Shown in pieces: positions 2,902 to 25,222 of a stretch of DNA of 64,000 nt. Below the pieces are notes generated by a model. The model was not told where the DNA came from. It did not search any database and was given only the letters and a program-made list of their open reading frames with translations. Within the stretch, counting starts at the first letter, position 1, and every line of letters starts with the position of its first letter. The stretch lies in assembly GCF_000725345.1 (NCBI RefSeq), contig NZ_CP008852.1, positions 3,588,001 to 3,652,000 on the forward strand, in the 5' to 3' direction. This DNA is from Pelosinus sp. UFO1. Lineage in GTDB: Bacteria; Bacillota; Negativicutes; DSM-13327. Position numbers and translations under genes: made by a program.

Positions 2902-3200
2902 GATGTCAAGGGGGCAGGTCCCTTGATACTTGCACCTTTCTTACCATTTCACGGTTTAGTTCCAATGTCTCCGCAATCCCTCTTAAGGACAAGTTGTAAA
3001 ATTCGCGGGGACGGTTCTTTTGATTCACTCCCCTCTTTTTGTCTCATGTCATAAGTAAATGATCATAAACTTCTCTTCGAAAAATGGTGTCCCATATTTC
3101 TATCCTATTTTCCATTAAAATACAAAACTCCTGCAAGGCTAAGCCGTTTTGCAGGAGTTCGTCGTATATATTGTTTTTTGATCAGCTCTAATTATTGTCT
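2902..3200. repeat. Composite repeat: family A tail joined to family C element
   Basis: 2902-2996 is the family A transposase 3' end (minus strand, same HTH peptide). From 2998 it continues as a full family C element: GGGGACGGTTCTTTTGATTC, about 110 bp of shared spacer, then the hairpin AAACTCCTGCAAGGC / GTTTTGCAGGAGTT and a T-rich tail. The two families abut with no unique DNA, so one probably landed in the other. Confidence 0.75.
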
Positions 3201-5098: not shown

Positions 5099-5749
5099 TT
5101 AGCATGGGAAAAGCAACTCCAACAAATGGATGCCCTGTTTTCCTCCCATCGTAATTGCTTCTCTACAGAATTTACAATAACATGCAACTTTTTCTGTCTG
5201 GAATTGTGTACAGTGCTTTTGAAAATATGTTATCTGCTCCTCTGGGGGGCAGGGGGTAAACATATGCGCCCCTTCCTCTACATAGCGTTTGGGGGCCAGT
5301 TTGGCATTGCTCGGTGTACAGGAAGCTAATAGATTCACACCACAGAATTTGGTCTTTTCAAAGTTTTCATCCAGTTCTACATACTTAATATTCATTTTTT
5401 TTAAAAGAGAACGTACAGTATCTTGAAGCTGTCGTTTCTCAAAAGCAACCCAGCAATCCTGAATCGTTATTATCTCGCTATGATAATCGGGAAATGGAAA
5501 ATCAGCATCATTGTCGATCAAATCCCAGACAAACTCAATATTTCCAGCCTGTGAGCTTTCTTCCATTATAGCGGCACAATTATTACAGACAACAATCGCG
5601 CTATCCTGAACAGTTAGCTTTTGATACTCCGTACGACAACACCCGATTGAATCAATATTATATCTATCCCTCATGTAAATACGCAATTTTTCACTTGCGT
5701 GTGTATAAGTAGCTTTTGCCTTACAGCTTGGAAAAAAGAATTTTGTCAT
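5099..5749 (-). CDS. Cysteine-rich CCG-type putative Fe-S protein
   Basis: A 216-residue protein. The N-terminal half has the spacing C9-x27-C37C38-x16-CNNC, a compact version of the CCG domain found in HdrB, GlpC and LutA-like proteins, where two such motifs bind noncubane or [4Fe-4S] clusters. The C-terminal half has further cysteines ending CYCKFC, suggesting a degenerate second unit. There is no signal peptide. The start follows AGAGGTG. No redox partner lies adjacent, so it may be an electron-transfer subunit of a dispersed system or a free-standing disulfide reductase-like protein. Function unknown. Confidence 0.5.
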   Translation of the reverse strand: MTKFFFPSCKAKATYTHASEKLRIYMRDRYNIDSIGCCRTEYQKLTVQDSAIVVCNNCAAIMEESSQAGNIEFVWDLIDNDADFPFPDYHSEIITIQDCWVAFEKRQLQDTVRSLLKKMNIKYVELDENFEKTKFCGVNLLASCTPSNAKLAPKRYVEEGAHMFTPCPPEEQITYFQKHCTQFQTEKVACYCKFCREAITMGGKQGIHLLELLFPC

Positions 5750-5865
5750 TTAAATCACCTCTTATATTCTACAATATTATTACAACATTCTTAACAACTC
5801 AATTTGTTCTCCAGATGGCCCTATAAAAAATCAAATTTCACAGCCGCAAAAATAAATGGGACAAG

Positions 5866-23215: not shown

Positions 23216-23578
23216 TTATTTCGCTAATAATTGAGCAACTAATGCTTTATTGCTTTCTACACAATTACCGCAACCAGTGCCAACTTTCGTAACAACTTGT
23301 ACCTCTTCGAATGACTTTGCACCATTTTTGATAGCATTCACTAAATCTTGTGCAGTAACTTTAAAACATCCACATACTACTTGATTTTCATCGATTTTTT
23401 TTCTTAATAATAGTTCATCAACTAATGTTTTATTGTTTTCTACACAATTACCACAACCAGTACCAACTTTAGTAGCAGCTTGCACATCTTCAAATGACTT
23501 AGCACCATTTTTGATAGCATTATTTAAATCTTGTACAGTAACATTAAAACATCCACATACTACTTTGTTATTATCCAT
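23216..23578 (-). CDS. Tandem BFD-like [2Fe-2S] protein
   Basis: A 120-residue protein built from two nearly identical domains of about 57 residues (residues 1-58 and 60-118). Each has the bacterioferritin-associated-ferredoxin pattern: CGCF near the start and GTGCGNC about 32 residues later, giving four cysteines per domain for a [2Fe-2S] cluster. Single domains of this type occur in Bfd, NifU central domains and NirB. A free-standing double copy suggests electron storage or transfer. The internal ATG behind AGGGAGAAAATAG is chosen over a longer frame. Last gene of a MarR-controlled operon. Confidence 0.85.
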   Translation of the reverse strand: MDNNKVVCGCFNVTVQDLNNAIKNGAKSFEDVQAATKVGTGCGNCVENNKTLVDELLLRKKIDENQVVCGCFKVTAQDLVNAIKNGAKSFEEVQVVTKVGTGCGNCVESNKALVAQLLAK

Positions 23579-23696
23579 TCTATTTTCTCCCTTAAGTTTT
23601 TTTATTTTTGAAATTATTGTTTTTATCATCTTTTCTATTTCCTTCATTATGTGTAATTTATTTAGAATTTTGTATGCTAATTAAACTTCAACTTTA

Positions 23697-23885
23697 TTAA
23701 ATATTATTTAAACTTTGCAGCAAATTCTCTACATTAATTCCATGAACTCTAGCAGCTTCTTCTATACTCTCTTTTTGAGATGCAGGACATCCAATACAGC
23801 CCATACCAAAACTCATTAATATTTCTATTGCTTTAGGCCCCATATCTACGATATCCTTTATCATTGTTTTTCCATCAACTTTCAT
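23697..23885 (-). CDS. DUF1858-domain protein with redox CxxC
   Basis: A 62-residue protein with the DUF1858 pattern: TMIKDIVDMGPKAIEILMSF, then the pair C30-I-G-C33 in GMGCIGCPASQKESIEEAA and a C-terminal helix. This domain is often found beside hybrid-cluster proteins and other anaerobic nitrosative- or oxidative-stress genes, where its disulfide is thought to act in redox relay. RBS AAAGGAG. Second gene of the operon, 15 nt after the upstream stop. Confidence 0.85.
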   Translation of the reverse strand: MKVDGKTMIKDIVDMGPKAIEILMSFGMGCIGCPASQKESIEEAARVHGINVENLLQSLNNI

Positions 23886-23900
23886 ACGTACACTCCTTTA

Positions 23901-24485
23901 TTAATTATAATCCCTGTTTAGCTCAAACCAATTTTCCCAAGGTCCAATTAATTTTTCATGGGGTTCAATACACCCCCTCCTGTATGGAAAACTATCCTTT
24001 TTATAAAGACCTCTTTCCTTTAATCCTGCTAGTATGCTATTCATTCTCATATTTCTTTCTTCAATGGATTGACTATAAATTAGTATAACCCTGTCACAAT
24101 CTATTTCGCCTCTTAAATATCGGTCTGGTTTTGCATCTTCTGGTATCGTATGACTAATTCCAGTACCTAATCTTTCGCCTCTTTCAGAATAATACAAGGA
24201 TTTATTTCTCATCATCTTTCCACTTAGAGTATGATCTTTATCTGCTTCTTCCAATAAGAATATTAGAGTTTCATCTAAGTCTGTCAAGTTATCTTCCCAT
24301 ATTTCGAATTTCCAACAATTTATGCATTCATTGTTTGGTGTCTCTTCTGTTTTAAGCTTGTGATAACATCTAGAGCACTTATTACCCCAATCTTCTCCAT
24401 ATCCAAAGTAAACCCAATGGTTATCTTTTGAGAAAGGTACTCTTTTTTTAAGCTTATTAAACTTATCCATTGTATCTTTTCCCAT
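23901..24485 (-). CDS. Uncharacterised zinc-ribbon-type protein leading a redox operon
   Basis: A 194-residue protein of unknown family. Near the N-terminus two pairs, CSRCYHK and CINCW, are spaced like a zinc ribbon or rubredoxin-like knuckle. The central part is acidic and helical (DLDETLIFLLEEAD), and the C-terminal part has many charged and aromatic residues with a lone Cys in RRGCIEPHE. No signal peptide or membrane span. The ATG behind GAAGGAG is preferred to one eight codons upstream. It is the first gene of a three-gene operon with DUF1858 and double-BFD genes, so a redox or metal role is inferred from context. Confidence 0.6.
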   Translation of the reverse strand: MGKDTMDKFNKLKKRVPFSKDNHWVYFGYGEDWGNKCSRCYHKLKTEETPNNECINCWKFEIWEDNLTDLDETLIFLLEEADKDHTLSGKMMRNKSLYYSERGERLGTGISHTIPEDAKPDRYLRGEIDCDRVILIYSQSIEERNMRMNSILAGLKERGLYKKDSFPYRRGCIEPHEKLIGPWENWFELNRDYN

Positions 24486-24608
24486 TATTATCTCCTTCAA
24501 GTAATTCAACTACTAATTTATATTTCTCTTGATAGTTGAGTTGATTTTTTTCGTTAATCTCTCCCAAAATTGGGACACGATGTTCTTTTTCATATTGTTT
24601 CTAAAACA

Positions 24609-24628
24609 ATATTACTAATTAGTGATAT
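24609..24628. promoter_or_regulatory. Palindromic operator, site 1 (redox operon promoter)
   Basis: ATATTACTAATTAGTGATAT, an almost perfect dyad centred on ACTAATTAGT. The same 19-mer occurs inverted upstream of marR. It lies about 124-143 bp upstream of the first redox gene. Confidence 0.7.
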
Positions 24629-24664
24629 TTGTGTTAATAAAAAGGCTGCTTGCCAACCTTTCCA

Positions 24665-25111
24665 TTAAGTTCTATTCATTTTTTTGAAAAGGTAACTTAA
24701 ATGTTCCTTTTCCTGCGTATCTAAATTATCTAGCAATCCATCCAAATCATTTAAATGCTCAGGAAAAATCGTTTCAATTAATTCTTCTCCTCTTTTAGTT
24801 AATTGCACCAAATAAGCTCTTTTATCGGCAGGATCGGTATGGCGGGTAATCCACCCCTCTTGCTCTAAATTTTTAATAACTACAGTCATATTTCCACTTG
24901 TGGACAGCGTTCTATCAATTATTTCTCCAATATTCATATCACCTAAATGATATAATGCTTCCATAACACCAAATTGCGGCATGGTAATATTATAACTGGC
25001 TATTAATTTTTGTGTACTCCTGTGTATTCTAAAGTAAGAACGATAGAGTCCAATGACGACATTTAAGTTCAATCGATTCTTCATTCCATAATCTTTACTA
25101 TTGTTGTTCAT
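24665..25111 (-). CDS. MarR-family transcriptional regulator
   Basis: A 148-residue winged-helix protein. The helix-turn-helix MNIGEIIDRTLSTSGNMTVV and the wing TDPADKRAYLVQLTKRG are typical of MarR, with dimerisation helices at both ends. MarR proteins are dimeric repressors released by phenolics, metals or thiol oxidation; this one has no cysteine, so thiol sensing by the protein itself is unlikely. Two copies of a palindrome, one 10-29 bp before this start and one before the redox operon, point to autoregulation plus control of those genes. No clear RBS precedes the chosen ATG; an internal ATG at codon 10 is an alternative. Confidence 0.88.
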   Translation of the reverse strand: MNNNSKDYGMKNRLNLNVVIGLYRSYFRIHRSTQKLIASYNITMPQFGVMEALYHLGDMNIGEIIDRTLSTSGNMTVVIKNLEQEGWITRHTDPADKRAYLVQLTKRGEELIETIFPEHLNDLDGLLDNLDTQEKEHLSYLFKKMNRT

Positions 25112-25120
25112 GGCTATAAT

Positions 25121-25140
25121 TTATCACTAATTAGTAATAT
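25121..25140. promoter_or_regulatory. Palindromic operator, site 2 (marR autoregulation)
   Basis: TTATCACTAATTAGTAATAT, the reverse complement of site 1 over 19 positions, placed 10-29 bp before the marR start codon where it would block transcription initiation. Confidence 0.7.
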
Positions 25141-25222
25141 TGTCAAGTATTAAAATTGTATTGTCTGTTGCATAATCAAATCTCATTGTCGTCACTCCCA
25201 ATTTTTCATCCTCAATCCCCAA

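Follow-up and report, generated by a model that had tools for sequence, protein, structure and literature searches.

What signal does a MarR-type regulator relay to a short cluster of small redox-protein genes, and by what route does it do so? This question is raised by a locus in a 64,000-nucleotide stretch of Pelosinus sp. UFO1 DNA (the whole of which we call the window), where an earlier note had proposed a MarR-controlled operon. To our knowledge, the sensing and detoxification of quinones and redox-cycling electrophiles in strict anaerobes are poorly known. The comparisons described here suggest that MarR probably shuts its own gene and the neighbouring redox-protection genes via two palindromes until a quinone-like toxicant appears. 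One of the controlled genes belongs to an unnamed protein family, and the switch is found across Clostridium. The Pelosinus host, an anaerobic soil bacterium, is able to reduce AQDS, an analogue of humic quinones (PMC6107796), and quinone exposure would therefore be natural for it.

Gene order and palindromes of the locus

On the minus strand, marR is followed by the gene of a 194-aa protein to which we give the working name ZnR, by a DUF1858 gene and by a gene for a tandem BFD-like [2Fe-2S] protein, BFD2 (Table 1). Profile comparisons bore out the earlier identification of marR, DUF1858 and a tandem BFD gene: the marR product exceeds the curated PF01047 cut-off of 24.6 bits and thus belongs to the MarR family, the DUF1858 protein scores 85.6 bits against TIGR03980 (cut-off 44.95) and 71.8 bits against PF08984, and BFD2, which has no full-length match among named equivalogs, scores 108.4 bits against PF04324 (cut-off 26) with two Fer2_BFD domains. 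Because of the alignment of its relatives and the lack of a Shine-Dalgarno sequence at 23647, BFD2 probably starts at 23629 rather than at 23647. The Shine-Dalgarno sequence of ZnR is AAGGAG, and the GC content of the cassette is about 31%, compared to 38% for the window.

Table 1. Features of the marR locus, in positions of the window.
Feature	Position	Strand	Remarks
Operator 1, in the marR promoter	25121..25140		20-bp palindrome, gene strand ATATTACTAATTAGTGATAA
Operator 2, ahead of the operon	24608..24629		22-bp palindrome AATATTACTAATTAGTGATATT, one mismatched pair
marR promoter TTGACA-N17-TAAATT	25118..25146	-	spacer filled by operator 1
Proposed operon promoter TTAACA-N17-TAATAT	24609..24637	-	-10 within operator 2
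marR, 148 aa	24665..25111	-	predicted MhqR-like winged-helix repressor, no cysteine; PF01047 54.9 bits
ZnR, 194 aa	23901..24485	-	without Pfam/NCBIfam model; two C-x2-C pairs
DUF1858/TIGR03980 redox-disulfide domain protein, 62 aa	23697..23885	-	CIGC motif
BFD2, tandem BFD-type [2Fe-2S] protein	23216..23647	-	PF04324, two stretches

Both palindromes (18-22 bp) are built on the core ACTAATTAGT. On the plus strand, the 18-bp near-palindromic dyads read TATTACTAATTAGTGATA in operator 2 (24610-24627) and TATCACTAATTAGTAATA in operator 1 (25122-25139) and are exact reverse complements of each other over 18 bp, in keeping with the inverted copies that the earlier note had described in the marR leader and before the operon. 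The -10 element of marR ends 6 nt ahead of the ATG. Promoter-like pairs in the AT-rich stretch around operator 2 are no rarer and no commoner than chance, and for this reason the second (operon) promoter is a proposal only. Two additional palindromes, TCCCAAAATTGGGA at 24562-24575, close to operator 2, and ATATTGTTT-CTA-AAACAATAT at 24592-24612, abutting it, were not seen in relatives.

A scan of the 5.1-Mb genome yielded no third site at two or fewer mismatches (every further match has 3, and a reversed control pattern gave 9+3 matches in the same scan), and on this basis a wider regulon in this genome was rejected. The bare 10-mer core occurs at five other places, and the four examined all lie within ORFs (diguanylate-cyclase-type, TypA-like, a transporter and a short 133-aa ORF) and lack palindromic flanks. 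A 3-mismatch site at 1,787,207 was discarded; it is located near uracil-DNA glycosylase-like and EVE-domain-like ORFs and has no redox operon beside it. In the literature the core sequence turned up in unrelated contexts only.

Conservation of MarR and its operator

A search with ZnR retrieved relatives in Clostridium, in Oceanirhabdus and in one MAG. An alignment of MarR sequences next served to screen the genomes of this family and of the window's own class. We compared 46 loci of the MarR clade, oriented on marR, which are not independent of one another as near-duplicates (C. zeae twice) and close relatives are included; a dyad was called at no more than one mismatch, and expectations were derived by shuffling these stretches under a first-order Markov model. 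The leader dyad is present in 45 of these 46 partly related loci (34 exact), versus 0.99 expected, and 43 have a second dyad no farther than 220 bp behind marR (39 exact), versus 1.7 expected, so that an origin of the dyads by chance is rejected and the proposed control by MarR via two dyads gains strong comparative support. At the second site, many relatives have two or three cores at a distance of 15 bp. At all loci but L108 (64%), MarR is only 38-49% identical to the window protein. One long-branch member of the clade (L084) is without either site, and in none of eleven weaker MarR matches (E 1e-17 to 1e-39) does a dyad occupy the leader position.

The leaders themselves revealed a common architecture. 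In 42 distinct leaders the tetramer TTGA always stands 11 bp ahead of the core, the following base is C in 97%, and the resulting promoter, TTGAC-N17-TATATT, has a 17-bp spacer that the operator fills and a TATATT-type -10 after it. The -10 ends 6-7 nt from the marR start codon in 40 of 45 loci, and a Shine-Dalgarno sequence is absent there (at most 3/6 matches in 40 of 45). By contrast, 41 of 42 first downstream genes have a Shine-Dalgarno sequence with at least 5/6 matches. Since the -10 lies so close to the ATG and no Shine-Dalgarno sequence precedes it, we predict a leaderless mRNA for marR.

On the basis of this comparison we strongly infer that MarR binds to the dyads, and repression through them is very probable. 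As judged by conservation, MarR and its operator are a unit behind which the genes are exchanged between loci; of the co-occurrence of gene set and dyad that the earlier note had set as a test, the MarR/operator part held, whereas the exact three-gene set did not. The module of the window and of Clostridium is a real, conserved regulatory unit, whose ligand and effector functions we infer. We found no literature on a clostridial MarR-pirin-nitroreductase regulon, and publications that mention clostridia too name MhqR in passing only; the MarR/operator pairing is conserved and apparently so far undescribed.

Comparison with MhqR

The nearest solved relative of the window MarR is 9qdr/9smz (E 5e-23), which represents the structures of S. 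aureus MhqR (SaMhqR), a thiol-free quinone sensor whose quinone pocket comprises F11, F39, E43 and H111 (PMC12893000). Conversely, the window MarR is its own genome's best match to SaMhqR, 47 bits ahead of the other MarRs. If the printed chain is taken to be shifted by three residues against the numbering of the paper, a shift which F39, E43 and H111 all fit, these three residues correspond to F47, E51 and H119 of the window protein and are invariant in all 46 MarRs, while F11 corresponds to V19 and is replaced by V/L/I in the clade (F in one of 46). Like the MhqR systems of S. aureus and B. subtilis (mhqRED; azoR2, mhqNOP), the window MarR combines a MarR fold and three of four pocket residues with the lack of a conserved cysteine: the window protein has none, as the earlier note had stated, and no alignment column holds cysteine in more than 24 of the 46 relatives. 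Moreover, its operator is a 9-9 bp palindrome without spacer inside a promoter, and the operon would be local and autoregulated, with quinone/nitro-reductase-type genes in relatives.

On the other hand, the sequence identity, operator and recognition loop that mark MhqR are all different here. The window MarR is 36% identical to SaMhqR, whereas MhqR homologues share more than 40% among themselves; the operator is of the type TATTACTAA-TTAGTAATA and not TATCTCGAA-ATCGAAATA (second half wTCGAnATA), with 6 of 9 half-site bases equal; and the loop reads L-S-T-S-G-N-M-T-V instead of L-I-A-S-S-S-I-S-Y. Within the clade the loop hardly varies from T-(S/G)-G-N-M-T-V (GN.TV in all 46), and its departure from that of SaMhqR is consistent with a different operator. 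The cargo also differs, with Fe-S, DUF1858 and pirin proteins in the place of MhqE/MhqD. Because the identity is 36% and operator and loop differ, the window MarR is, by its sequence, MhqR-like and not MhqR, and by analogy it probably works like MhqR. This nearest characterised regulator points to a quinone or aromatic ligand and not to NO, oxygen or metals.

Proposed switch and the genes behind it

We propose, at a probability of about 0.52, that the locus is an autoregulated local switch for quinone or aromatic-electrophile stress in an anaerobe. A MarR dimer would bind the 20-bp palindrome ATATTACTAATTAGTAATAT; operator 1, filling the -35/-10 spacer, would shut the marR promoter, and operator 2, which extends over the -10 as well as the spacer of the putative operon promoter, would shut the operon. 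A quinone-like ligand, for which the odds are about even, would enter the F47/E51/H119 pocket without thiol chemistry and disturb the recognition loop, such that DNA would be released as in S. aureus MhqR. The derepressed operon would then make Fe-S/dithiol redox proteins, with ZnR as a putative effector and with BFD2 and DUF1858, as we tentatively suggest, in the role of small electron or thiol carriers.

For the genes behind the switch, counting with a gap rule (which overlooks some genes) over the 46 loci gave pirin at 19 loci, tandem BFD at 16, a 143-aa cysteine-rich protein at 9, two nitroreductase groups at 9 and 8, DUF1858 at 5, an azo/quinone-reductase-type flavoprotein (Flavodoxin_2) at 5, and ZnR and a DsbA-like protein at 3 each. 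The 143-aa protein (CysR143; 5362-5793 at L014) has no Pfam family and lies behind the same operator at some nine loci. As the switch recurs in about 45 of the loci compared here, a function could be assigned to many unannotated MarR genes, and finding it would also inform the pirin, BFD2, DUF1858, CysR143 and ZnR genes behind MarR.

By their predicted families, the companion genes suggest that electrophiles of the quinone, nitro and azo types are reduced and removed; the chief competing reading is NO/hydroxylamine. MhqR regulons contain quinone reductases, nitroreductases and dioxygenases (PMC6798810), and the lack of all three in the window operon speaks against the quinone reading, as does the naming of DUF1858 for the hybrid cluster protein (Hcp), which leads to nitrogen-oxide chemistry. 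A nitrosative or hydroxylamine module, in which a reactive-nitrogen signal frees MarR and DUF1858 and BFD2 feed Hcp or aid Fe-S repair, nonetheless appears improbable. The window DUF1858 protein does match the hybrid-cluster-protein-associated domain TIGR03980 over its full length, above the cut-off and with its CxxC present, and C. folliculivorans and C. zeae both carry an Hcp gene behind ZnR. However, that gene lies 300-450 bp downstream and in these two sister loci only, no Hcp gene adjoins DUF1858 in the window, and most loci have pirin, nitroreductases and the flavoprotein as companions. The BFD domains resemble that of NirB, as they do those of Bfd, NifU and the CopZ N-terminus; BFD2 has two PF04324 domains with C-x-C...C-x2-C motifs and differs from these systems in being a stand-alone tandem that is not fused to an enzyme. 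Against a reactive-nitrogen signal, the MarR is without a metal, haem or cysteine sensor.

The switch might instead answer a general or unrelated aromatic ligand (a plant phenolic, an antibiotic or an endogenous metabolite), the redox genes being one exchangeable cargo, which we consider unlikely. The pocket type is common to salicylate and urate MarRs, its H and E residues occur also in MarRs with other ligands (PMC12893000), and the cargo differs between loci; yet this cargo consistently consists of redox enzymes or carriers, and among solved proteins a quinone sensor matches best. A metal relay, in which ZnR would carry the metal and BFD2/DUF1858 would assist in its delivery, is highly improbable, for although ZnR has cysteine pairs and BFD-type domains are also found in CopZ-like metallochaperone models, no metal transporter was recognised among the recurring operon genes, the third ZnR cysteine is not invariant and no metal-sensor residues are known in this MarR group. 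We favour quinone/electrophile defence over NO or a metal relay; of the redox-stress or metal-relay module suggested earlier, redox stress fits the companions, whereas the metal relay found no positive support.

The ZnR family

The earlier assignment of the first operon gene to no known family was confirmed, as ZnR matches no Pfam or NCBIfam model and no solved-protein sequence, but its description as a zinc-ribbon protein was not: no zinc-ribbon profile matches, and the third cysteine is serine at the MAG locus L019, so that the four cysteines are not invariant. From the sequence, the cysteine pairs are a C-x2-C...C-x2-C pattern and not a proven zinc ribbon, and the first pair falls on a low-confidence helix in AlphaFold2 models. 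When searched for directly, ZnR was present in only 5 of the 225 Clostridium-order genomes, always at a locus with a dyad; in the MAG it follows a nitroreductase, and the stretch examined there has no dyad. As far as these searches reach, ZnR is a rare family without Pfam model, confined to Clostridium relatives and one MAG, and none was found on plasmids, phages or viral contigs. Weak class-level matches (L012 and L013) are partial frames with stops and were taken as chance.

Two AlphaFold2 models of ZnR, both built on one set of seven sequences (pLDDT 67 and 68, pTM 0.72), had their best fold match in 8sap, the N-terminal domain of a class III lanthipeptide synthetase (Z 7.7/7.3, rmsd 3.7, 121 aligned), and both also had eIF4E, phosphothreonine-lyase-type proteins and BLES03 as weak neighbours. 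For the second model, nearly all matches down to Z 4.9 fall in the eIF4E/LanKC-lyase group, and unrelated ones begin at 4.2. With all Z below 8, the models tentatively resemble the eIF4E/LanKC-lyase fold; the matches to the lanthipeptide synthetase/eIF4E/BLES03 group are weak but repeated, whereas ZnR has no sequence match to this group, carries extra cysteine pairs and is modelled at moderate confidence. The model had no match in a viral fold library, and a search for Pfam Bles03 in the Clostridium relatives was uninformative, with no match but blank controls too. It is rather unlikely that these loci make up a large undescribed clostridial regulon with a leaderless, autoregulated MhqR-type sensor, an operator code of its own, a Fe-S-based quinone/electrophile defence specific to anaerobes and, in ZnR, a new family of eIF4E/lyase-like fold to which cysteine pairs have been added.

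Origin of the cassette

Neither the MarR nor the ZnR of the window was present in the congener genomes examined. In the MarR tree, the window and G096/L108, the second strong member found in its class, form a group separate from the Clostridiaceae loci (support 95/94), and the G096/L108 locus has both dyads, with pirin- and nitroreductase-group genes behind them. Conversely, the window ZnR is 81% identical to that of C. peptidivorans and BFD2 about 83-85%, values that exceed those between some Clostridium relatives. The simplest reading of these sequence relationships would be a mosaic cassette, in which Clostridium-type effectors lie behind a MarR of another lineage with the same operator.

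At the C. pascui locus L015 (4633-4990), the marR copy next to the ZnR operon has decayed, with an internal deletion and a stop, while its dyads persist; an intact marR is present elsewhere in that genome (L051). Finally, a REP-like repeat, GGGACGGTTCTTTTGA, is dispersed in the window at 3008, 4746, 25570, 26711, 33009, 48566, 53076 and 54532, with 28 loose matches in the window versus 8 expected.
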